Positions 4,178 through 43,855 of a DNA stretch of 64,000 bases are shown here, piece by piece. Position 1 is the stretch's first letter; the number at the start of each line of letters is the position of its first letter. The stretch is from Pelagomonas calceolata (lineage: Eukaryota; Sar; Pelagophyceae; Pelagomonadales; Pelagomonadaceae): positions 3,128,501 through 3,192,500 of the forward strand of contig CAKKNE010000002.1 of the NCBI GenBank assembly GCA_918797485.1. The letters run 5' to 3'. The notes below the pieces were generated by a model. The model was not told the DNA's origin. It saw nothing but the letters and a program-made list of their open reading frames with translations, and did not search any database. Position numbers and translations under genes: made by a program.

Positions 4178-5884
4178 ATGCGTGTAACTGTAGCATTGGG
4201 CTGCGCTGCAAGCCATGCCTTCCGACCACCGCTCCCACGCAAACTGCCGACCACGACACGCACTGCCATCGACGACCTCTACACGTCCAAGGGCGTGACG
4301 ACCACTACCACGCGCGCTGCCGTCGCGCCGCCGCCAGGCAAGAGCTGGCGCACGAAGGAAGGCCCACAATCAACACTCATCGCCGGCGGCGGCCCGGCCG
4401 GGTTATTAACGGCAATAGCCTTCGCGAAGCGCGGCTGGACGAACATAAGGGTCGTGGACAGATTAAGGGAGCCCTACGATCCGGGGGATGAGCTCATCTG
4501 GTCCGACGCCGCGCGCTTCTACCTCGTCGGTCTTGGACTAAGGGGCCAGACGGCGCTGACGGAGCTCGGCGCCTGGGACACCGTACAAAGCTACTGCGCC
4601 GAAGTTGTAGGGAGGAAGGACTGGGCGCCGGGCGCCGGCCCCGACGAAGGCGTCGAGCGCATTTTTACGGACCGGCCCGTGTCGACGCAGGTCATTGCCA
4701 GGGACCGCATGCAAGGTGCTTTGTATAAAGTCGCGAAAGAGAAATACGGATCTCAAATTAACTTCGACTGGGAGACCGAGGTCGACGTCGAGGACGACGA
4801 CGTGACATTAACGAAAGGTGCGACGGAGGAGGTCCTGCGGCCCTCATTAATAGTGGGCGCCGACGGCACGGCGCGGACCGTGGCCATGGCGCTCGAGGAA
4901 AATGATCGACGAGTCAGGATAAAGCGCTACGACGACGACAACTGCCGGGTCTTCAAGACCGTTCCCTTAGATTTACCAGAAGGTTGGCGCGGCGACGTGA
5001 ACTACTCCACGCGCTCGAAGGGCGGTCGCATGAATTTTGATGCCTTGCCGTCCGACGCCGAGAACCGGCGCTACTGCGGCGTGCTGTTGTTGCGGGAAGG
5101 CGACGCCCTCGCCCAGGAGGACTCCTCTCCCGACGAATTAAGAGCGCTCATGAAGGAGTGCCTGCCGCAGTTCGAGCCGTTCGTGAATGACGAGAATTTG
5201 AATAACATCGCGAAGAAGCCCGCTAGTCGTTTACCTGGGTTCCGGTATGTGGGCCCCAGGATCCACAAGGCCGATAGAGTTGTGCTGTTGGGGGATGCGA
5301 TCCATACCGTGAAGCCCTACTTCGGGCTGGGCGCGAACAGCGCCTTCGAGGACGTCACGTCACTTGACAAGTGTCTTGATGAGCATGACAACGGTGCCGA
5401 CGCTCTCAAGGCATTTTCAAGGGCAAGAGCCCCGGAGGCGAAAGCGCTGGTCCAGATCTCGCGCGGCTTCGACCGGCCGGGGTTCCGAGGCTTCGTGTCG
5501 TTCATCTTACCTATCATCCTGGACTCGATCTTCCACGCGAAGTTCCCGAAGGTCTTCGGTCCGAACACGATCGCGTCCTTGCAGCGGCGGGACACTTTTG
5601 TTAGAGTGCGCTGGAACAAGCGGCGGGACCGCTTGCTACAAGTCGCGGTGCTGGGCAGCGGGCTGTACCTCGCGGCGTCCTCTGTGCGTTTGTTGGCGCG
5701 CCTCGCTTTGTCGACGCCGGCGGCGCGGCGCACATCCTTAATCGGCGCGGCGGCCGTCGCGGTAGCTGGCCTTGCTGCGAAGGCCCTCTCGTTTTTTGAA
5801 CGAGGTATGGCTCCAGCGGATGTATTGACGAAGACGAACTCCTCGCCGGTGGCGAACTCGAACGAGGACTTCGTGACGAACTAA
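4178..5884 (+). CDS. FAD-dependent monooxygenase, kynurenine 3-monooxygenase-like, probably plastid-targeted
   Basis: 568 aa. The dinucleotide-binding motif GGGPAGLLTA is at about 69-78, the family DG motif (GADG) at about 227, and the second FAD motif (VVLLGDAIHTVKPYFGLGAN) near 368. These mark a class A flavoprotein hydroxylase of the KMO/UbiH type; substrate is unknown. The C-terminus has a hydrophobic region (LLQVAVLGSGLYLAAS and a second stretch after it) consistent with a membrane tail, as KMO proteins have. The chosen ATG at 4178 sits in a good context (GCCACCATG) and opens with MRVTVALGCAASHAFRPP, a short signal-like segment followed by an ASAF-like motif with Phe at the expected +1 position. 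That is the hallmark of bipartite plastid leaders in algae with secondary plastids. Convergent with the next gene, 11 bases between stop codons. Confidence 0.83.
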   Translation: MRVTVALGCAASHAFRPPLPRKLPTTTRTAIDDLYTSKGVTTTTTRAAVAPPPGKSWRTKEGPQSTLIAGGGPAGLLTAIAFAKRGWTNIRVVDRLREPYDPGDELIWSDAARFYLVGLGLRGQTALTELGAWDTVQSYCAEVVGRKDWAPGAGPDEGVERIFTDRPVSTQVIARDRMQGALYKVAKEKYGSQINFDWETEVDVEDDDVTLTKGATEEVLRPSLIVGADGTARTVAMALEENDRRVRIKRYDDDNCRVFKTVPLDLPEGWRGDVNYSTRSKGGRMNFDALPSDAENRRYCGVLLLREGDALAQEDSSPDELRALMKECLPQFEPFVNDENLNNIAKKPASRLPGFRYVGPRIHKADRVVLLGDAIHTVKPYFGLGANSAFEDVTSLDKCLDEHDNGADALKAFSRARAPEAKALVQISRGFDRPGFRGFVSFILPIILDSIFHAKFPKVFGPNTIASLQRRDTFVRVRWNKRRDRLLQVAVLGSGLYLAASSVRLLARLALSTPAARRTSLIGAAAVAVAGLAAKALSFFERGMAPADVLTKTNSSPVANSNEDFVTN

Positions 5885-7661: not shown

Positions 7662-8056
7662 ATGAATGTGATTGGTTCTGGGTCGTAAGGGGGGGCACCG
7701 CGCGCCGATTTATCGGGCCGGGCGGCGGGCACGTGCCGCGTCATTCATAAGCAGAACCACCTCGGCACCCCCGAACCGGAGCGCGTTGGCCGCCGTTCAC
7801 GGAGTTCGCCGTTCGCTTCGATGTTACGGTGCTAGGACTTCGCCGTTCACAGCTAGTGTGTGTCGACACACTAGGTTTTCCTGGAGGGCAGAGCGCCGAC
7901 AATATGGCCATGTCCGCGCAGAGCGCCGCGCCGGTGGGTGGCTCCCATCCACGACACCGCAGGCGGTAACTGGTGCGAGTCTGACGGGCAGCCTCTGCCG
8001 ACAGCTAAACAAAAAACCACTGTAGCGCCGCAGCAGCGCATCGCAAGCGCGCGGTG
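7662..8056. promoter_or_regulatory. Intergenic region upstream of the giant membrane protein
   Basis: 395 bases without a gene. It holds a near-perfect palindrome at 7853-7874, arms CTAGTGTGT and ACACACTAG around GTCG, about 180 bases before the next ATG. It also has three short CGCCGTTC repeats between about 7790 and 7850. The palindrome resembles the CTAG-bounded intergenic repeat family described elsewhere. Confidence 0.4.
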
Positions 8057-11000
8057 ATGCGGCGGGCGGCGGTCCTCGCGGCGTGCGCGGTCGCGGCCAC
8101 CGCGCAGACCGACGACGGCGGCGGCTTCGCGTGCGTCGCCTGCGCGGCCGAGGAGAGCCTCACCGCCTGGTACGTCGCCGTCTCAAACACCGAGTACACC
8201 TGCGACCCGGCGACGTACCCTATCTATGTAAACAAGGACGGAGTCCCGACGACGGCGCACGTCTTCAAGCACCCGGCCTGCAGCTACGAGTACGGCACGC
8301 GCGCCGGGGCCACGGGCGGCGCCATCAGCTGGGTGACGCAGTGGTGCGCCGACGACGGGACCATCTGGGAGGCCTCGGACTGCGCGTGCGAGGCCGCGGG
8401 CGGCGGGGCGTGCGCCGCCCCGGGCTACGACGACGACGACGGCTACGACGACGACGACGACGCCCCCTGCGACTACGACCCCGGGTCCTGCGTCGACGAC
8501 CGGACAACCACGGATGCCTTCGGCGACGGCTGCGCGTGGTACGCTTGTAACCAAGGGGAATGCGGCGACTACGACGACGGCGACTTCGCGGCGCGGGACC
8601 AGTGCTGCGCCTGCGGCGGCGGCACGCTCGCCCCGTCCGCCTCCGACGACGACACGAATAAGCCGTCCGCCTCCGACGACGGCGGCGACGGCTGTGTGCT
8701 CCACGTCGCCGGTCCCGTCGTCACCTCCCCGAGCAACCAGGTCGCCACCGTCGACTCGCTCCAAAACTACGAGCTCGCGTTCACGATGGAGCTGGCGAGC
8801 GACTGGACGCCCAGCCTCGGTACGGGCCATTGGCAGTCCATCCTCCGCATCGGCAATTTGGATTACCAGCGGTTGCCTGGCATCTGGTTTCACGAGACTC
8901 AAAACGCCTTGTACGTGATGCAATCCTACAGCGGCTGCGTGGGGTCCCCGTGGTCTAATAACATCTGCGAGTGGGGCGTGACGACGACGGGCGTCACCTT
9001 TACGGCCGGCGTGACCTACGAGATCAGAGTTGTCGTCGAGAGCAACCAGATGACAGTGTACGTCGACGGCGTCTCCGTCGGCACTGCGTCGGGGCCTGCG
9101 GTCGACACAGTGACGGACGCGGCGGTCTACGTCGGGGATCCGTGGTGGGACTGGGACACCGCCAAAGTGACGCTCTCCGACGTCACGCTCTCCGACGCCG
9201 CGCTCGCCGGCGCCTGCGACGCAAAAAAGTCCTCCGATGGCGGCGGTCTGTGGGTCACGGCCGACGTGGGCACCTACGACGAGATGCAGGCGGCGTGCGA
9301 GCAGGGCGGCGGCCACCTCGTCGTGCCGGCCTCGGAGGACGAGCGCCTGGCCGCGCTCGATGCAGTAAAGGCGTCGGTCCACGGCGACGTCGAGATCTGG
9401 GTCGGCTACACGCTGCCGAGCGGCAGCGACCCCGGGACCATGGCGAACTACGACGGCGAGAGCGGCCTCACCATGGAGGAGGTCGGGTTCTACCTGTGGG
9501 ACTCGAACTGCGGCAAGTGCGGCACGAGCCAGTCGTGGGACCGCTGCGTGCACCACACCACCGTGGCGACGGGCGGCGGCACGCCGGGCTACTACATGGC
9601 CACGTGCTCCGGTCCGCGGCCCGGCGTCTGCCAGCCGGCCGGCCTGTGGGCCGGTTCGCTCGCGCCCGGCTACACGCATCTCCCCATGACCTGCGTGAAC
9701 CACCACAACATCGAGCTCCACGCGGGGAAGACCGTGGCCGAGTGCGCCGCGATTTGCGACGCCAACGCGCTGTGCCTGGCCTTCGAGTACGGCGTTGACT
9801 ACGGCGGGGACGGTGAGTACGAAGCGGGGGACTGCCAGGAGCAGAGCTCGGCGGTTCTGAACGGTTGCGACGGCGCGCACCACAACCTGGACTTGTACGT
9901 CAAGGACCAGTCGTCCTTCCCTCTGGACGATACCACGATCCGCGAGGCCGTCGCGGCGTGGCTCGCGGACGCGACCGCCGCCGAGGCGGCGTACGGCCAC
10001 ATTTCTACGTGGAAGACTGGGGGGGTGACGGACATGGCAGACTTGTTTTGCGCGTCCGAAACTAACGGTAATTGCGCCTCCAGCTCTTCTAGCGATCACG
10101 CGGCGGCCGCGGCGTCCTTCAACGAGGACATCAGCGCGTGGGATACCTCGGGCGTTACCACGATGATCAGGATGTTCTACGAAGCTTCGTCCTTCAACCA
10201 GCCGCTCAGCGGCTGGCAGGTCGACAAGGTCACGCATATGAACTACATGTTCGGCGAGGCTTCGGCCTTTAACCAGGACATCGGTGACTGGGCGGTCGAC
10301 AGTGCCATCAACATGAAGTACATGTTCTACAAAGCCTCGTCGTTTAACCAGGACCTTGGTGATTGGGCGGTCCACAGCGTTACGAGCATGAACAGGATGT
10401 TCCAATCCGCCACTGCATTTAACCAGGACCTCGGCTGGTGCGTGGTCAACAACGCGGACCTGTATAGCGCCTTCTACCTGTCCGCGTGCGAACCCAATTG
10501 GATTGGCGGGCGCACAAGCTGTGGCGTCGTGCGAAAGGACGAAAACGGCGAATGCTCCACCGAAATCCTTACAGACAACTCGATCCACGTGGCGGTCTGG
10601 CGGTGGTTCAGGGACGAATCTGCCACCGAGGCCACGTACGGCCACATTTCCACGTGGAAGACATCAGAAGTGACGGAAATGGATGATTTGTTCATAAACC
10701 AAGGATCCTTCAACGAGGACATCAGCGCATGGGATACCTCGGGCGTTACAATGATGGCCAGGATGTTCTACCAAGCTTCGTCCTTCAACCAGCCGCTCAG
10801 CGGCTGGCAAGTAGACAAGGTCATGAATATGAACCAGATGTTCGGCGGGGCTTCGGCCTTCGACCAGGACCTCGGCTGGTGCGTAGGCGACGACGTGCTC
10901 CAGGTAGGCGCGTTCGACAACGCCCCCTGCGAGGCGACGTCGTGCGGCGTCACGCAAGGCACCTGCAAACCGACGCCCGCGCCGACAGCCTTCGACGGTA

Positions 11001-14000
11001 AGTTCTACGACAGCAACATCAGAACGGCCGTCATCGCGTGGGCCTCAGACGCGACGGCCGCCGAGGCGACGTACGGCCCCATCTCGACGTGGGACACATC
11101 GGGGGTGACGGACATGGAAGGCTTGTTTTGCGCGGTAGATTTAGACGACGACGGCTGGAGCGATTGCCTGGGCTCGGCTGCAGCGTCCTTCAACGAGGAC
11201 ATCAGCGCGTGGGATACCTCGGGCGTTACAATGATGGCCAGGATGTTCTACAAAGCTTCGTCCTTCAACCAGCCGCTCAGCGGATGGCAAGTCGACAAGG
11301 TCACGAATATGAACTTCATGTTCAGCGAAGCCTCCGCCTTTAACCAGGACATCGGTGACTGGGCGCTCGACAGCGTCACGCACATCACGTCCATGTTCGA
11401 AGGCGCCTCGGCCTTTAACCAGGACCTCGGCTGGTGCGTGGGCGACGACGTGAACCTGGGCGACGCGTTCTCCGACACCCCCTGCGAGTCGACGTCGTGC
11501 GGCGTCGTTCAGAATGCTGCGGGCACGTGCGCGCCGACGCCCGCGCCGTCGCCCAGCGCCGCGGCGCCCGACCACCCGCACTGGCGCTGGGGCGCGGCGG
11601 GCCAGAGCTGCGACCAGGCCTGCGCGCCGACGGGCCTCGCGTGCAACGCGCAGCCCATGGCGACCGTCACGACGCTGACGCGGTTCCGGGCGCTCGCCGG
11701 CGCGATCAACTCGCCGACGACCCCCGACGGCATCACGGGCGTGGGCGGCCACACGGCGCCCGACCAGGCCCCGTTCTCCGACATTGGGTCGGGAAACGGC
11801 GAATACGATCAACTCGCCTTCCTGGCGACGGGCACGCCGACCTGCGCCGGCGCGCACAGCAACCGCGCCCGCCTCTGCTACTGCGGCGCCTTTGATGACA
11901 CGAGCATCGTCACGGCGCGCGACGCGTGGCTCGCGGACGCGACCGCCGCCGAGGCGGCCTACGGCCACATCGCGACGTGGGGCACCGGCGGCGTGACGCA
12001 CATGAAGGCATTGTTTTGTGCGAGCGCGGTGGGCGACTGCAACGCGGCCGCGGCGTCCTTCAACGAGGACATCAGCGCGTGGGATACCTCGAGCGTCACG
12101 ACGATGTGGAACATGTTCAGAGGAGCCTCGTCGTTCAACCAAACGCTGGGCGACTGGCAGGTCGACCAGGTCACGGACACGCGCTTCATGTTCGCCGACG
12201 CCGCGGCGTTCAACCGGCCGCTCGGCGACTGGAGCGTGGGCAACGTCGGGGATATGCGCCAGATGTTCAACGGAGCCACGTCGTTCAACCAGCCGCTGAG
12301 CGGCTGGAGCGTCGTCCAGGTCACGAATATGAGGGGCATGTTCCAGGACGCCGCGTCGTTCGACCAGGACCTCGGCGCCTGGAGCGTCGGCGGCGTCACG
12401 AACATGGCGAACATCTTCAACGGCGCCTCGGCCTTCGACCAGGACCTCGGGTGGTGCGTGGCCACGAGCGTGAACAAGAACAACGCCTTCGCCGGCAGCG
12501 CGTGCGCGGCGACGGCGTGCGACGTCGTGGCAAAGGACAATTGCGCTAGCGTCATGGACGACACCACGATCCGCGAGGCCGTCTCAACATATCTCGCCGA
12601 CCAGTCGGCCGCCGACGCGACGTACGGCCCCATCGAGAAGTGGGACACGTCCCGGGTCACGGACATGGCCGGGCTCTTCTGCCGGGACTGTGGAATGGAG
12701 ACGCAGCACTTCAACGCCGACATCCGGGACTGGGACACGTCCGCCGTCACGTCGCTGCGCCAGACGTTCAAGGGCGCCGCGTCGTTCGGCCAGCCGATCG
12801 GCGGCTGGGACGTCTCCCAGGTCACGGACCTGCACGAGACGTTTCGGGGAGCGACGAGCTTTAACACGCCGCTCAACGACTGGGACGTGGCTCAAGTCAC
12901 AACCTTCTACCACACGTTCGCCTGGGCCACGGCTTTTAACATGCAGCTGAACAAGTGGGCGATGGGGAGTGCCACGACGATCGAAGGCATGTTCCGCAAC
13001 ACGAACTACAACCAGAATTTGGGCTGGTGCCTCGAGATTGATCTTGTAGACGTCTTCAAGAACGCCGCGTGCAGTTTGACGGCGTGCGGCGTCGAGCAGG
13101 GCTTCGACGAGGGCGGCCGCTGCAAGCCCCTCGTCACGCCCGCGCCGACGCCGGCCCCGACGCCTTTGCCAACACTCGCGCCCACGGAGTGTTCGGTGCG
13201 GGCGCCGCCCCAGGTCCTCGAGGCGACCTTCAGCCCGGGCGTCGAGGTCATGATCAAGTTCGACGCGCCGACGGACATGTTCTCCAAAAGCGTCGAGGAG
13301 ACCTTCCAGTGCTACGAGGTCCTGGACTTCAATGATAACGACCGGGACTCGACGCCGATGGACTGCTCGTTCATCAGCAGCACGGCGGTGCTGATCGCGG
13401 CGAAGGACGAGGTGAACCGCGCGGGCTGGACCGTCGCGCTGCGGCCGTGCGTCGTCGGGCTCGAGGACGCGAAGGCGTGGGACTGCGACTGCGCGTCGAC
13501 CGAGGACGACATGACCGTCGTGACGATCGAGGTGCCGGACGAGCTCCAGAAGCCCGAGGCGCGGCTCGAGGGCCCGCAGCAGGCGGCGACCTGCGAAATT
13601 TTAAAAATTGACGCGTCGCCGTCGATCGGCGGGCTGGGCAGCGCCTTCACGTCCTACGCCTGGGCGGCGGCGGCGCCGGACGCGTCGGCGGACGCCCAGC
13701 AGGAGCTCGCGGACGAGATCGCGCGGGCGTCGGTGAAAAACTTTCACACCTTGAACTTCCCGACCGGGCTCCTTGCGCTGCTCGGCGGCGACACGCGCGT
13801 CGACGTCACCGTCACCGTGACGGACTGGATGGGCTACGAGGACACGTCCGACGTCTTCAGCGTCGAGCTCCTCGCCGGCGAGCCGCCGACGGTGTCGATC
13901 CCCGGCGATCCAACAAGAACGCTCACGCGCGCCGACGCGCTGGGCGTCGAGGCCGTGGCCATCGCGACGGGCTGCGACGGCCGCCCGGACGTCGACCGCG

Positions 14001-17000
14001 GCGTGGAGTACGCCTGGGATCTCACGACGACGGAGGGCGCGGCGACGGGGCTCGCGTCGGCGTCGCGGAGCCCGAAGAAGTTCAGCCTCGACCCGTACGC
14101 GCTAACCGTGGGAAACTACACCCTGGCGGTGACGGCGACCGACGCCGGCGACGCCGGATCAAAAGCAACCGCGACGGCGTCCACGTCCATTATTGTGGAG
14201 GCCGGCCCCCTCGTGGCCGAGGTCGTCGGCGGCGAGGCGCAGGTCGCCGTCGCGGGCGACACGGTGCGCCTCGACGCGTCGCCGAGCTACGACACGGACG
14301 TGGAGGGGGTTACGGGCGCCGCGGCGGGCCTCGAATTCTCGTGGAGCTTCAACAAAACTGTGTTAGCGGGCGAGGTCGTCGACCTCGCGCTGGTCGGCGA
14401 CGCCGGCTGTGTCAATGAAGAGGGCTGCGAGCTCGTCGTGACGCTGACGGTCACGAAGGACCGCCGCGCGGCGACGGCGGCGGTCGTCCTCGAGCTCCTC
14501 GTGCCGGAGGAGGTCGTGGTCCTGCCCAGGGTCGACGTCGACGCGTCGGCGCACGCGTCGCGCCGCGTCTCGGCCCAGGGCACGGTCAAGCTCCTCGGGA
14601 CGGTGTCGTCCGACGGCGGCGACGGGGCGCTGGCGTCGACCTGGGTCGTCGACGGCGCGCTGGTCGTGTCGGAGGGCTGCGACGACCTGGCTTGCTGGGC
14701 GAACACGGGCGTCGAGGAGGGCGGCGGCGGCGAGTACCGGCACGACCTGGTCGTGGCCCCGGGCGCCCTCGTGGGCGGCGCGACCTACGGCTTCCGGCTC
14801 CTGGCGGCCTTCGCGGGCGCGGACGTCTCGGTCTACGCCGGCGTGACGTTAACAGCGGTGACGCCGCCCGCCGCGGGCCAGTGCGCCGTCGCGCCGCAGG
14901 ACCCCGGCGTGTCGACCTACGTCGCGCTGTCCACCAAATTCGTCGTGTCGACGGCGTCGTGGGTCGCCGCCGCCGAGGACTACCCCCTGGAGTACTCGTT
15001 CCAGGCGACGGCAGGCGGCGTCACGACGACGCTCGCCGTCTTCGGCGACAAGACGACGGTCGCGGACGTCTACCTGTCCGCCGGCGACGTCCAAGTTGTC
15101 GCGATGGCGCGGGACGCGCTGGGGGGCGTGGGCGAGGCGAGCGCGCCCGACATTGTGGAAGTCGCGGAGACGGCGCTCGAGGGCGAGGCTCTGGAGGAGA
15201 AGACCGAGGAGCTGTTGGACGAGGCCTTCGCGCTGGATCGGACGGAGCAGGTGCTCCAGGTCGCCGTGGCCGTCAGCGAGGCGGACGTCGAGACGACGGC
15301 GGCGACGACGGAGATTCTGGTCGACGCCGTTGCGGCCGTCGTCGAGACGCTGGATGCGGACGAGTCGTCGGTCGAGGCCGCGGCCGTCGCCGCCGAGGTC
15401 ACGTCCTCGACGCACCTGACGGCCGCGGCGGCGAACACGTCCCTGAATTCGGTGGGGCAGCTCGCAGCTCTCTCCACCGAAGTGGGCATCACGGGCGTCG
15501 CCGCGGACGGATTGGTGGGGACGCTGTCAAACGTGTTAAGTGTGGAAAACCTCCCGCCGAACGCGACGGCGGCGCTCGGCGAGAGCATCGACGCCATCGG
15601 CGCGGCGTTGGTGTACGACGCGGTGCCGGGGGAGAAGTGGCGCGGCGTCGAGAAGGAGCACGTGGCGCTCGGCGCGCAGTCCGTCAAGGCGAACGCGACG
15701 AACGCGAGTCTGGCGGCGCCGGGCACGAACTCGAGCGTGGCGCTCCAATCAACTAGGAATATCGAGGTCGTCGTGGCGGAGCTCGCGCGCGACCCGCTGG
15801 GCGGCGACTTCGAGGCGACGTCTCGCGTCGTTCGGTTTGGCGCCTTCGCTAATATAGACGGCGAGCGGCGGCGGCTGTCGAGCGGACCAGTCTTCACGGC
15901 TTCTATCGTTGTGGACGCGGGCAACTCCTCTGAGGTCGCACGCGCGTTCGACGAGGGCCAGGTCCTTCACACAAATTTGACGTGCCCGTGCCACTTCGTG
16001 GGTCTCATAAATGCGACGTGCCCCGACGGGAGGAACGTGAGTTTGAGTTGCGACGGGCGGCCGCAGACCGTGGCCGCGGCCTGCGAGGCGGGCACGACGC
16101 AGTGTACCACATCCGAGAATGGTCGATGGGTCTACGACGCCAGTTGTAAGGCGACGCAGTTCGAGAAGCGTACTCTATGTGTATGCGAAGCGTCACCGGA
16201 CGACCCGAAGTACTACTCGACGGCGACGGCCGCGCGCACGCTGATCAGCGTGTACAGCGCCCATTTGACGGACCCGCCCGACTTCCGGAAGGCGAAGTGG
16301 GTGCTTACAACATTGATGGTGCTCTTCGGCTGCTGCGTCCTGATGACGTGTTACGGGCGGCGCCTCGACGCGCGGGACCGGCGCGAACACGAGTTCTCGC
16401 GGAGCCTGGATTCATTGTTTGACGGCCTGGACTCGAGGCTGGGCGGCAAGGGCGTCGGGCGCTTCGACGACCTCGCGCGGCCCTGGAAGAGCCGCGCCGC
16501 GACGGGTTTACGGGTCCAGCACCCCTTCGTCAACTACTACTGTATTTACTCAAAGACGATCCCGCGGGGCTGGCGCGCGTGGGTTTGTGGGTTTGAAGTC
16601 TTGGCGTTCTTATTTGTATTAGCCGTCCAGACGAACCTCGAGTACCCGGAGAGCGCCAAGGATGCGTGTGGCGCGCGCGACATAGAAGACGACTGTCTCC
16701 AACTGAAAAACGTCTTCCGGTTCCGCGTCACGGCCAACCTCAACCGGGGTTTAGAATTCGCTCCAAAGAACATGTGCGCCTGGGACCAGTGCTCCCAGAG
16801 CTGTTTTGCCGTGGAGCCGGGCGACGGCGCGACGTTCGACCCGTCTCATTTGTTACTTATACTGGCCGTCTTCTGGTGCACGATCCCGTTCATCCGCATC
16901 TGTCTGGTGCTCTTCGAGAAATATTTAGTGGCGCCCGTGCCCTACGCCCTGCAATGCTGTCGGAGCGGGACGCGGTCGGCGCGCTGGACGACGTGCATGA

Positions 17001-19688
17001 GTCCCGAAGGCGGACCGGCGCAGCCGGACGCCGAGAAGGGTCTCGCCGTTGATGATGACGACTTCTTGACAGCTTTAGATGACGTCGACGCCGAGTGGGA
17101 CAACGACGAGGACGACGAGTGGGGTAATGATGATGACGACGTGGCGACGCTCATGAATGTGGTGACGAAGGCGGATATAGAAGTGGCGCGGGCGCCGATA
17201 TTGAGACGGTCCCTGTCTCAACACGATAGGGATGTGTTGCGGGAGGAGCAGCGGACGTGGGCCGAGGGCGTCGCGCGTGATTTGAGGCAAGCGAACCTCG
17301 GCGTGATATCACCCGAAGACCTAGCTAAAATCTCGGTGCCGGCGGGCATGAAGGCCGTGCTGAAGAGCGACGTGCTGGCTGCCTTATCCTTCGGCACGGA
17401 CGAGATCGATCGGGCTACGGCGAAAATCCTGGGCGAGCCCGTCGCCGACGCGGTCGTCATGAGGGCGGCGGAGCTCGCCGCGCGCGCGCGCGAAGCTAAA
17501 CAACTGGACGTCAAGGGCGCCAGTGATGCCGCTACGGTATTGCAGTCGCTCTCTCGCGGCTTACTGCGCGACTGGCAGTACACCCCCACAAGAAAAGTCT
17601 TCGTCCAACGCGTCGAGGCGCGCGTCGCCAAACATTTATCAAGAGCAAGAGTGTGGAACGAGAAGCTCCAGTGCGGCCCCCGCCGGAAGACGGCGCGCTT
17701 CGACGCCATGGTGCGGCGCGAGCATCTGAGGCGGACGCGGTTCCACGTCGCCGCCGAGGCCTCGAAGCGCATGAACGAGAAGTTGGAAGCCCCCTTGCGG
17801 CCTCCTAGAGTCTGGCAGTACCTCGGCGCGTGGCTCTTTGTGCTGGGTACCCACGCCTTCTTCGCCTACTACCTCATTACGACGGGCGCGCAGTTCGGCC
17901 TCCAGAAGTCAAAAGTGTGGCTCATCGAGAGCTTTTTCGCGACGGTGACCATGTTCCTGATCGTGAAGCCGCTGTTCGTGGTCTTCTACTATTTGATGGT
18001 GCCGTCGCTCCTCGAGGAGAACATCGCCGAGGCCGCCGAGGCGCGGAAGAGGGGTAGGAGGGCAAGAGCGTTACCCTTCGCGACGGAGCTGCCCACCGGT
18101 GCCACGTATTATGTCTTGAAACGCCGTCCCGAACTCGCCGAAACGCCGGCCGGGAAGATCGTGGCCTCGGAGCAGGAGGCGTCGCAGGGCCCGCACGACG
18201 CCGAGGCCTTCGTGCGCTCTCTCGGAGAGGCTGCACCCGGGCGCCTCACGTCGATTGCTGTGTGGAAATCAACCAGTGCGTCGGGTGCACCCGATAATTC
18301 TTCACTAAGTCATTTCTCGGCGATGACGCTGCCGTGCTGGCTCCGTCGAGCGGTGAGGAACCGGCATCGTCACGCCATCGAGCACGTGTCGCGTCGATGG
18401 CGGTGAGGTCGACGCGGCGATTCAGGACGAACGCGCCGTAAAATTTTGATTTCCACACAGGTCGATTTTAGGCCACGCCCTCGTTTGCCTCGTGGGTACG
18501 TTCCTCCTCTTACACGAGGAGGTCCAGGAGACGATGCTCGAAGAGTTAGTTGCGGCCTTACCCGTCTTCGCGAGTGGCGTGCTGGGCCTCATCCCGACGT
18601 CGCTCATGGAGCGCGACGATGGGGTGGGCGAGATGATGTCGTTAATTGTAGTCGCGATCTGGGTTTTGATCGCCTACGGCCTATTCCTATTAATGCGGAA
18701 TATATACCACGTCTTCCTGGAGGCCGTGGACCCGGAGCAGAAGGCCCACGCGAGTTTGAGGAGGCGTGGGCCCAAGATCCTCGCCCGACTAAAAAGGGCG
18801 GCCTCGAGCTTCCGGCGCCCGAAGTCGCCGCAGGAACCGGACCTCGCCGCTACTGCCGAGGCGGCTAGGAACCAGCTCGCGCTCGTTCCGGTCAAGGCAC
18901 CCCCCGTCAGCGTCGACCGGCCGCTTGTTGAGCTTTCACCGGAGGGAGTTGCCGCGTGGCTGTTCCTGCAAGAGCTGCCCGGAGATCCCGCGGACGTGGA
19001 CGCGCTAGGCGAACGCGTGCGCGAGCGAGGCATTCCCGGTGCTGAGTTTGCGCGATTGGACGCGGATGAACTGAAGATCATGGGCGTCACGACGCTCGGT
19101 TTGCGCAAGGCGATCCTGCGGCGCACCCGTGAGGACGCTGCCGCCCAGCGCGCCGCTGCGCAAGCGCTCGTGCGCGTGGGTGCTTCAAGAGGAGCTGCCG
19201 TGACCTCGGAGAGCTCTGCCTCCAGGGCCGCAAGCACCGAGCCTGGACGGCAGCTCGTCACGCGCGACGCCCTCGCCCCGCGCACTGAGGAGGCGGAAGT
19301 CGATGCCTACGCCGAAGCCGTCAAGAAACGCAGGGCCGCTCTGCGGGCGATCTTCGACCGCGTCGACTACAACCACGACGGGCAAGTGTCTCGAATCGAG
19401 GCCATCAAGGCGCTGCGGAAGGACGACGAGTTCGCGCGGATGCTCGGCTTTGCGCACCATACGCGCGTCCGCCAGGAGGACGGCACGCGCGACAAGTTGA
19501 TGCTCGCCTTCGGCGCGCTCGACGAGAACGAGGACAAGATGCTGTCGTTCGAGGAGTTCCGGCACGCGTCCCTGGTCGCGTTGAGCTCGGTGATGCCGTC
19601 GCCTCCATCTGAGTCGGGCATGGCGCTTGGGGTGCCTCCGACCCCGCCGGTGCAGATGGGCTCGGGGGACGTGAATGCAAAATTGTAA
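8057..19688 (+). CDS. Giant secreted/membrane protein: lectin-like, DUF285 arrays, PKD/REJ-like, multi-TM, SAM, EF-hands
   Basis: Exons 8057-18249 and 18461-19688, 3806 aa. A signal peptide (MRRAAVLAACAVAATAQ) is followed by a LamG/concanavalin-like region (about 214-378), a C-type-lectin-like region (394-525), a PAN/apple-like module (540-614), five DUF285/BspA repeat blocks (623-1678), and a PKD/REJ-like stretch (1710-2570). Then comes a Cys-rich juxtamembrane segment with CPCHF and CVC motifs. Hydrophobic segments lie near 2745, 2840, 2931, 3253, 3288, 3399 and 3458, then a SAM domain (3554-3621, ending LGLRKAILRRTRE) and two EF-hands (DYNHDGQVSRIE and DENEDKMLSFEE). The architecture suggests a polycystin-1/REJ-like surface receptor or channel component; that is inference, and no PLAT domain was seen. 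Splicing out 18250-18460 joins GRLT to SILGHALVCLVGTF, making one further membrane segment. Confidence 0.82.
10115..12450 (+). repeat. DNA-level tandem repeats encoding DUF285/BspA modules
   Basis: Five blocks each begin with a sequence like DTTIREAVAAWLAD...TYGHISTW and end with DLGWCV. Inside them, a stretch encoding FNEDISAWDTSGVT recurs almost identically near 10115, 10706, 11186 and 12056. The first three copies continue with nearly the same DNA through SSFNQPLSGWQVDKV. Such nucleotide identity between repeats of one gene points to recent unequal crossing-over or conversion rather than selection on protein alone. Confidence 0.85.
18258..18460 (-). mobile_element. Introner-like element, copy A (acts as intron 18250-18460)
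   Basis: A 203-base element with 15-base terminal inverted repeats: left CTGTGTGGAAATCAA, right TTGATTTCCACACAG. It is flanked by a target duplication, GTCGATTG at 18250-18257 and GTCGATTT at 18461-18468 (7 of 8 identical). Removing 18250-18460 as a GT-AG intron (211 bases) restores the frame exactly. The donor GT comes from the left duplicate and the acceptor CACAG from the element. Internally it matches the copies at 30698 and 43303 in reverse complement, including a core with CGCCATCGACGCGA and TGCCGGTTCCTC. Annotated on the minus strand to show orientation relative to those copies. Confidence 0.92.
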
Positions 19689-30330: not shown

Positions 30331-31312
30331 ATGATGCGAGCAGCATTAGCATTGCTGGCGCTCGTGCCGGCCACTGCATTAAGAGTGACGGTGCTGGGTG
30401 GCAACGGCTACGTCGGCCAGCGCGTCTGCGAGAAGCTGGTCGCGCGCGGCTGCGACGTGACCTCGATCTCGAAGAGCGGCAAGGCGCCGAGCGGCGGGGC
30501 GTGGACGCAATCGGTCAAGTGGGTCGCGAACGACCTGACGCGCGGCAGCCGCCAGGAGCTCGAGGCCGCGGTGGGCCAGCCGGACGTCGCCGTCTCCTGT
30601 GTCGGCACGGTAGGTTTCGACGGCCGGGGCCTGGAGCTGGGGAACGGGGTCGCTAACGTGCGCGCGGCGGAGGCGCTCAAGGGCGTCCAGCGCTTCGCAG
30701 TGCACGAATCAAATTTCGCGGCGCTTGTCATGGCCGAATCACGACCTGCACGCCATCGACGCGATGCCTGCTCGACGGCGTGGCGGTGCCGGTTCCTCGC
30801 CGCTCGACGGAACCATCACGGCCGCATGACTCACTGGTTGATTTGCGCACAGGCGCTTCGTATTGGTATCAGTAGCGTCCGAAGTGGCCGCCGCGAAGGG
30901 CTGGCTGCCCGGCTACTTTGAATTTTATTTCAAGGGCAAGGCCATGGCCGAGGCCGCGGCGGCCGAAGCGGCGGGCGACGCGAACGCGTACGTCGTCAAG
31001 CCCTCGTTCATCTACGGTGGCGACAGCTTCGAGCTCTTCCCGCCGCGCGTGGCGAGCGGCTACGGCGCCGCGATCGAGGAGATCCTCTCGAACGCGATCA
31101 TCACGAAAATCGCCGACGTGCTGCCGGGGCTACTGAAGGTGGCCCTGCGGCCGCCGAGCTCCGTCGACGCGGTCGCGGAGGCGTGCGTCCGGTGCGCGGT
31201 CGGCGACTGTTCGACGACTGTGCTCGACGGTACCGTCGCCATCAACGAAGCCGCGGGTGCGGACAAAGCAACGGGCTTCAGCGACTTCGTGGGTAGGCTG
31301 TCTACGAATTAA
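30331..31312 (+). CDS. Atypical short-chain dehydrogenase, COQ11/NDUFA9-like, two exons
   Basis: Exon 1 30331-30689, exon 2 30853-31312, 272 aa. The Rossmann NAD(P)-binding motif GGNGYVG is at residues 23-29, directly after a short hydrophobic leader (MMRAALALLALVPATALR). The segment SISKSGKAPSGGAW ... SVKWVANDL closely resembles yeast Coq11 and plant plastoglobule relatives. Later VASEV, KGKAMAEAAAAEAA and YVVKPSFIYGG fit the atypical SDR pattern in which the catalytic Tyr/Lys pair is modified. A role in quinone metabolism or lipid-droplet redox is plausible but inferred. The gene is interrupted by an introner-like element; exact removal gives KGVQRFVLVSVASEV with no extra or missing residue. 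Confidence 0.85.
30698..30852 (+). mobile_element. Introner-like element, copy B (acts as GC-AG intron 30690-30852)
   Basis: 155 bases, left end CAGTGCACGAATCAA, right end TTGATTTGCGCACAG (12 of 15 positions complementary). It is flanked by a perfect 8-base target duplication, GCGCTTCG at 30690-30697 and 30853-30860. Restoring the host codons exactly needs removal of 30690-30852 (163 bases), which begins with GC of the left duplicate and ends with the element's CACAG. No nearby GT donor gives the correct frame with this acceptor. The core (CGCCATCGACGCGA, TGCCGGTTCCTCGCCGCTCG) is shared with copies A and C. Confidence 0.9.
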
Positions 31313-42745: not shown

Positions 42746-43855
42746 ATGGCGGCGGTCACAGTCGACGGGACGGTCGTCGAAGAAGAGAAGGTCGACCTGG
42801 AGATTCCTCAGGAGAAGGTCGACGTCAAGAAGGCGGACGAGGCGGAGCCCGAGAGCGCCGGCGGCTGCGACGTCTGCTTGCCGCCGAACGGGCTCATCGG
42901 ATGCGGCGCCTACGATTATAAATATCTCTGCCTGCCGTCGATGCCCTGGTCGCGCGGCGGCGTCGCGCCGCCCCAGTTCCTTGGGAAGGACGCCCGCTTA
43001 CCGCTACTCCTCGCGCTCGTGATGGGCTTCCAGCACGCGCTGGCCATGGTCGCGGGCATCGCCACGTCCGGCGGCATGCTCATCGCTGGCGACACGTGCT
43101 TCCCGTGGCAGTACGACAGCGCCATGTGCGAGGCCCAGAATTACCTCGTCAGCGCCGCCTGGATCACGTCCGGCATCCTCACGATCATCCAGGTCTTCCG
43201 CGCAAAGATACGGGGCACGCCCTACTATTTGGGTACGGGCCTGCTCTCGGTCATGGGTACCTCTTTTACCTTCCTACCGATCGCGAGAGAGATGGTCGCC
43301 CGCTGTGTGGAAATCAAAATTTTACGGCGCGTTCAATCGTCACGTCGTCCTCCACGCCATCGACGCGACGCCTGCTCGATGGCGTGGCGATGCCGGTTCC
43401 TCGCCGCTCGACCGAGCCAGGACGGCCGCGTCATCGCCAAGAATTGTCGGGTACGCGCCGGCGACGTGCGAGGTCAACGGCTACACGTGGTGCGGACCCA
43501 GCGTTGCGTCGAGCTCCACGCCATCGATGCGACCCGCTCCGCTCGCAGGCCGTCGGACGCCAACGACTTCGACACGACGTGTGCCGCTGTGTCGGGCGTC
43601 TTCACGCCGGCCGTGACCGAGTCCGAGACGACGCGCACATGCGCGAACGACAACGGCCGCTGCTGCAACCACTACAACAAGCGCGAGGACTCGCACCGCA
43701 CGACTCTGATCATCCTCCTCAAGACTCCGTATGCGATAGGCACGATCGCCGCGCTCTTCCTCCACCTGTTGCTGCCCGAGGACCGCGTCCTAGACGAGGA
43801 GAAGGAGCACTACCCGCGGGCCTTCTCGGACGGCGAGATCGCCTACGAGACCTGA
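42746..43855 (+). pseudogene. NCS2-type nucleobase (xanthine/uracil) transporter, internally deleted
   Basis: The N-terminal part (42746-43294, 183 codons) matches the start of NCS2 permeases: MGFQHALAMVAGIATSGG with the conserved TM1 His, then YLVSAAWITSGILTIIQVFR and GTGLLSVMGTSFTFLPIARE. At 43295 the frame runs into an introner-like element. Downstream, only the C-terminal end is present (RTTLIILLKTPYAIGTIAAL then LHLLLPED). The middle 300-350 residues, including the family signature in TM10 that binds substrate, are absent. The frame happens to stay open through the junction, giving a 369-aa reading with nonsense-like sequence between the two parts. With a transposon-like element 46 bases upstream of the ATG, this is most simply a deletion-inactivated gene; an assembly error is the main alternative. 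Confidence 0.7.
43303..43452 (+). mobile_element. Introner-like element, copy C, right end missing
   Basis: Begins with the intact left terminal repeat CTGTGTGGAAATCAA, followed by AATTTTACGGCGCGTTC, identical to copy A read in reverse complement. It then carries the shared core and hairpin (CACGCCATCGA at 43353 with TCGATGGCGTG at 43376). Similarity stops around 43452 and no TTGATTT...CACAG end follows. The 8 bases before it, GTCGCCCG, have the GY start seen in the other target duplications, but no second copy is found. This indicates that a deletion removed the right end together with neighbouring NCS2 sequence. Confidence 0.85.

Follow-up and report, generated by a model that had tools for sequence, protein, structure and literature searches.

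The locus at positions 18250-18468 of the stretch of Pelagomonas calceolata DNA analysed here (64,000 nucleotides; hereafter, the window) raises the question of whether a short transposon inserted in a protein-coding gene can serve as an intron of that gene. The origin of new introns is an old question, to which introners are a leading answer, and judging from the DNA we consider it very probable that this feature is an introner, that is, a short transposase-less DNA transposon with an 8-bp target site duplication (TSD) that would be removed from the pre-mRNA as an intron. In some introner families one splice site is carried by the element and the other is derived from the TSD, as passages of PMC9860276 describe.

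The copy at this locus (copy A) is a 203-bp non-autonomous element on the forward strand (18258-18460), bounded by terminal inverted repeats (TIRs), CTGTGTGGAAATCAA on the donor side (18258-18272) and TTGATTTCCACACAG on the acceptor side (18446-18460), which are complementary at 15/15 positions, as the original prediction had it. The left TSD GTCGATTG (18250-18257) and the right TSD GTCGATTT (18461-18468) agree at seven of eight positions, the degree of duplication originally claimed. The left TSD is the predicted source of a GT donor, the final CACAG of the acceptor-side TIR is the predicted 3' splice site, and the predicted intron is of the GT-AG type and 211 nt long (18250-18460), with the right TSD retained as the start of exon 2. 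Joining 18249 to 18461 gives a single open frame of 3,822 codons from stop to stop; with copy A retained, the host frame stops at 18404, inside the element. The claim that excision repairs the frame thus stands for copy A, but frame closure at a single copy is weak evidence, because 21 of the 105 nearby GY-AG pairs (GY being GT or GC) also leave the frame open.

The host gene lies on the forward strand, and its predicted parts are defined by the reading frame and by Pfam matches. The first exon part (8057-18249) codes for Laminin_G_3, Lectin_C, DUF285 repeats (1.3e-74 and 6.9e-127), and a REJ domain (1.6e-27); the frame begins at 8009, and its first ATG, at 8057, is the putative start. The downstream exon part (18461-19688) codes for hydrophobic segments, EF-hands (EF-hand_7, 4.7e-9), and a weak SAM match (SAM_2, 0.0015, under its cut-off), and no Pfam family is matched at E 0.01 in the 598 residues immediately preceding the junction. 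The insertion had been placed within a predicted membrane segment, and this does not hold: the hydrophobic stretch ILGHALVCLVGTFLLL has the junction at its N-terminal edge and not in its interior.

Copy A belongs to a large family. The genome searched comprises 32,445,274 bases in 8 contigs, with the window on contig 2; the P. calceolata RCC100 assembly is described in the genome paper, as far as its accessible text goes, as 32.4 Mb spread over six nuclear contigs, with a further contig each for the plastid and the mitochondrion, and its annotation drew on RNA-seq (PMC9481584). Exact matches to the 15-mer of the TIR number 1,562, of which 790 are forward and 772 are reverse, and the reversed TIR, used as a control, has none in either direction, so the abundance of these elements far exceeds chance. 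A similarity search with copy A returned 781 first-look candidates; all 40 that were scored are 91-100% identical, copy A among them, and the other 39 are 91-95% identical. Further genomic copies with the same ends, the absence of which would have counted against the original prediction, are thus plentiful. Among the matches listed (100 of the 1,562 ends), those up to C1:1,746,181 give 84 ends at 61 loci, 23 of which have two exact ends, and if the remainder are alike, the 1,562 ends correspond to about 1,100 loci, a rough estimate in which a few copies are counted twice because contig ends are duplicated. TIR-variant matches occur at near-equal offsets on the starts of C1 and C5 (e.g., 104385 and 104444), and duplicated ends of 393 kb, reported in the portion of the genome paper available to us (PMC9481584), are consistent with this recurrence.

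The loci sampled for further analysis are the listed places up to C1:2.19 Mb, together with copy A and seven other loci from the similarity search. Ends 40-330 bp apart were paired by script where the flanking 8-mers agree at 5/8 positions or more (a threshold of our choosing), giving 61 elements, copy A included, and leaving 19 exact ends unpaired. These 61 elements are 60-206 bp long, most commonly 203 bp; some of the shorter ones resemble elements of the copy A type that have lost internal sequence, and no match to copy A reaches 25 bases in 17 of the other 60 copies. The TSDs of the 60 other copies match at 8/8 positions in 35, 7/8 in 19, 6/8 in 3, and 5/8 in 3, and a match of at least 7/8 is found in 54/60 true pairs versus 35/3,540 mismatched pairings; the family looks recent because 35 of these TSDs are still perfect. 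Both flanks score as coding in 43/60 copies, a raw count from which extragenic copies may have escaped as unrecognisable. We note three loci (L032, L034, and L065) with two exact TIRs but dissimilar flanking 8-mers and thus no matching TSD, whose donor side yet starts with GT; these are perhaps old or recombinant copies.

Two other copies lie in the window, both on the forward strand. Copy C (30690-30860) is more diverged than copy A and has a diverged 155-bp element (30698-30852), a TSD GCGCTTCG that matches at 8/8 positions (30690-30697 and 30853-30860), and a GC donor; the frames of its flanks agree after excision and not with retention. Copy B (43295-43446) consists of a GT donor-side 8-mer, GTCGCCCG, followed by the start of an element of inverse internal orientation, the right end of which has decayed. 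Four of the six AGs examined as candidate acceptors for copy B (43295-43550) would keep the frame, and a 383-aa frame is open across the whole copy.

If the TSD supplies the donor, then its first two bases should be suitable on the coding strand in particular. The coding strand was called by a codon model for which long frames of the window, chosen mechanically by length, served as the training set, with splice signals unused; in leave-one-frame-out trials the model called the strand correctly in 151/151 pieces and the frame in 149/151. Copy A was dropped from this analysis because its gene sits in the training set. On the predicted coding strand the TSD starts with GY in 60/60 copies (45 GT and 15 GC), compared with 16/60 on the opposite strand (Fisher p 2e-19) and a coding-strand GY background of 0.168, and GT is favoured over GC, its share of 45/60 contrasting with a background share of 0.31. 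Nine of the 19 unpaired exact ends are called as donor-side, and eight of these adjoin GY, the exception being L064, where the strand is ambiguous.

Excision also restores the frame as a rule. The two flanks of each of the 60 loci were scored separately and have confident frames on both sides in 53, of which 48 are called on the same strand; flanks are called on different strands at 8/60 loci, five of them among the 53. Exact excision brings the flanks into frame at 46 of the 48 confident same-strand loci and leaves two out of frame, and retention of the element would keep the frame at only nine; the donor is GY in all 48. The exact frame repair originally proposed for copy A thus extends beyond it to the sampled copies.

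The decay of the two TIRs provides a way of showing selection for splicing from DNA alone. The TIRs of a copy were presumably identical at the outset, and under splicing the acceptor side would keep its AG as the donor side drifts. In the 61 paired copies, 31 of which have at least one TIR mismatch, all nine mismatches at positions 1-5 are donor-side, such that CACAG is intact on all 61 acceptor sides, whereas positions 6-15 carry 10 on the donor side and 27 on the acceptor side (p 8e-5 versus positions 1-5). We also sampled ends with changes at single positions. Variants at position 2, where AG would be lost, number 124 genome-wide, and among 40 of these, taken consecutively on contigs 2 and 3 and the start of contig 4, 37 are donor-side and three acceptor-side (p 2e-8); with a confident strand the numbers are 31 and one, and among paired copies they are 21 and none. 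The three ends called as acceptor-side are all unpaired, and the strand is decided in one of them. Variants at position 4, where AG is kept, number 141 genome-wide, and 20 taken from contig 2 (with one element's second end left out) are donor-side in 14 and acceptor-side in six, which is indistinguishable from an even split (p 0.115). The two samples differ from each other (37:3 versus 14:6, p 0.049; with a confident strand, 31:1 versus 12:6, p 0.006), indicating a constraint that acts on the acceptor AG, as splicing there would require. GY is lacking in one (L123) of the 16 paired position-4 copies and at four unpaired ends called as donor-side, L085 and L106 with position-2 changes and L119 and L120 with position-4 changes.

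Two further readings of the TIRs were considered and set aside. In the 61 copies, 7 of the 19 donor-side changes fall at position 2, an excess that hinted at selection that frees the AG from a hairpin, but genome-wide position 2 is not changed oftener than position 4, and plain constraint on the acceptor suffices. The TTGAT in the 3' TIR was examined as a branch site, but its A is not conserved; position 12 is the most often altered position on the acceptor side (6 of the 27 mismatches, some via indels), and we do not claim a branch point there because this A is altered in several copies.

The proposed mechanism has the TIR as its working part. On the coding strand the last bases of the 3' TIR are CACAG, which would form the 3' splice site, and since the TIRs are one sequence inverted, an acceptor would be supplied in either orientation. 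The upstream target copy would open with the donor GT or GC, and splicing, by removing one target copy along with the element, would restore the gene as it was before the insertion. Targets that do not start with GT or GC on the gene strand would break the gene, and such insertions are presumably lost. We infer that splicing takes place in the cell, that the elements move by cut-and-paste by a transposase encoded elsewhere, and that unspliceable insertions are lost. That the element carries CACAG and the target duplicate gives the GT, as was predicted for copy A, is borne out by the GY donors and the unchanged acceptor sides of the family. Passages of PMC10228655 describe introners as inserting in both orientations, and here, by matches of at least 25 bases to copy A, 29 copies are forward relative to the gene, 14 are reverse, and 17 have none (p 0.03); a looser cut on the internal part only gives 33, 22, and five (p 0.18). 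Both internal orientations thus occur, perhaps with an excess of the forward one.

Several other explanations would account for part of these observations. TIRs, a TSD, and small size fit any MITE, and copy A could be a plain MITE that disrupts its gene, with intron-like ends arising by coincidence, a reading with which the weak frame closure of a single copy accords. The coincidence would have to recur throughout the family, however, in the GY of the coding strand in all 60 copies versus 16 on the other, in the frames of 46/48 loci, and in the constraint on the acceptor AG, and we regard it as extremely improbable. Spread through RNA, by the reverse splicing that has been proposed for fungal introners (PMC9860276, in the passages available), likewise fits sequence-similar intron-like copies at many sites, but clear 8-bp TSDs and TIRs speak against it, and templates of spliced RNA do not predict that the internal sequence lies either way round relative to the gene; we give it just as little credence. 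A stronger contender, as the source of the GY at the TSD start, is a preference of the transposase for such targets in place of selection for splicing, and we judge it improbable rather than negligible. On the non-coding strand GY is slightly more frequent than its background (16/60 versus 0.171, p 0.058), and GY stands precisely at the start of the TSD in all 60 copies, none of which calls for a donor displaced by a whole number of codons. A transposase would not be expected to tell the coding strand from the other, however, and as the ends are symmetric and both internal orientations occur, GY on the coding strand in 60/60 copies is more than a preference by itself should yield, although it may act jointly with selection. 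The introner reading is thus supported at the DNA level, where same-ended copies, 8-bp TSDs, coding-strand GY, frame repair, and the acceptor constraint concur and the bounds of the predicted introns coincide with those of the element and its upstream target copy.

How the donor is recognized is a separate matter. It is conceivable, though we would not favor it, that what chiefly fixes the donor is its position, 8 nt upstream of the TIR, and not pairing with U1, as might happen if the paired TIRs formed a hairpin in the pre-mRNA. We detect no U1 complementarity beyond GY in the introner donors relative to background GY sites (mean matches of 1.42/7 versus 1.54, p 0.41), even though both candidate U1 snRNAs carry ATACTTACCTG, the usual start of the U1 5' end. 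These candidates (L132:1501-1672 and L133:1501-1678) score 64.3 and 58 bits, below the Rfam cut-off of 69.5, and are unlike one another by eye other than in having this motif near the 5' end. The TIRs of copy A fold as a 15-bp stem (z -2.8) that would bring donor and acceptor close together, and for the introners of Amoebophrya a model with a hairpin has been put forward (PMC7789003, in the sections available). TIR mismatches are common, however, the terminal pair is broken in the 21 paired position-2 copies, in which the acceptor side still has AG, and a preference for GT over GC is also predicted by ordinary donor recognition; a role for a hairpin is thus possible but not likely. A tentative and more specific suggestion, to which we attach a similarly low probability, is that the symmetric TIR forms a self-contained, orientation-free splicing cassette, such that the spliceosome would take any GY 8 nt upstream with no U1-matching consensus, perhaps with the TIR hairpin presenting that GY to it. 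If true, then about one in six coding sites would be open to intron formation by the transposon, and donors would be selected in a mode other than extended U1 pairing.

The source of mobility was sought within the same genome. No transposase was found between these TIRs among the 100 of 1,562 ends listed, nor by family profile searches, and a longer element with these TIRs may exist among the other ends. Two candidate autonomous partners were rejected: in L009 (C1:549074-552524) the left end is unpaired and the right one is part of a separate element of 71 bp, and in L130 (C1:5508130-5512840) both outer ends have inverted partners closer by (85 and 136 bp). L130 carries three short TIR elements inside 5 kb (431-515, 746-922, and 5006-5141), the first of them without a clear TSD, and the 668-aa frame that lies between the second and the third matches no Pfam family at E 0.1. 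Searches for MULE and DDE_Tnp_IS1595 gave no matches in the genome, and the absence of matches to the P-element-type family is uninformative in that the controls were silent too. The 8-bp TSD of the introner agrees with that of the hAT superfamily, and TSDs of this length are also found in other superfamilies. For hAT a search with one family model gives one match in the genome, at one place, a count that is a lower bound. The match lies in a hAT-like transposon, some 3.65 kb in length (L134:2550-6200, corresponding to C4:4499549-4503199), which has a frame of 714 aa, inverted 10-mers CAGGGCAGCA, and an 8/8 TSD TTGCTCGC; a frame with MYND-like cysteines, as read by eye, adjoins it. It was rejected as the autonomous partner of the introner, as its ends CAGGGCAGCA differ from the introner TIR, which in the 8.5 kb around the match is not found with three or fewer mismatches and is found once with four. 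No viral carrier emerged when viral contigs were scanned for exact matches to a 21-base end of the element.

A family that is large, regular, and recent-looking offers a clean test bed for intron gain, and with no donor consensus beyond GT or GC, the minimal sequence of a working 5' splice site becomes testable. The introner reading originally proposed for copy A was right in substance, but introner-length introns have been noted before in P. calceolata RCC100; the intron-length peak near 210 bp reported in the portion of that paper available to us (PMC9481584) compares with the 211 nt of the intron predicted here. The genome paper is the only literature on introners in Pelagomonas that we found, and we found none on GC-AG introns in pelagophytes. 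We describe here the TIR, TSD, and splice anatomy of these elements, on which Supplementary Note 3 of that paper may say more.

Among known systems, and as far as the accessible parts of the sources describe them, the introners of Amoebophrya also have inverted and direct repeats at the intron ends, but their ends are mostly non-canonical, in contrast to the GY-AG ends here, their direct repeats are 3-5 nt rather than 8 bp, and U1 was undetected in that host, whereas the U1 candidates here look canonical (PMC7789003). Those of Symbiodinium microadriaticum similarly carry the 3' site and take the 5' site from the TSD, which is 4 bp rather than 8 bp (PMC9860276, in the passages available). The introners of Aureococcus anophagefferens (Huff et al. 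2016) are alike in residing in a pelagophyte host and in having direct repeats and TIRs, as related in parts of PMC7789003, PMC9481584, and PMC10228655. By description they also share a length near 210 bp, co-opted splice sites, and insertion in both orientations; their splice motifs are called canonical in the relevant section of PMC7789003, in contrast to the GC donors in 15 of the 60 copies here.
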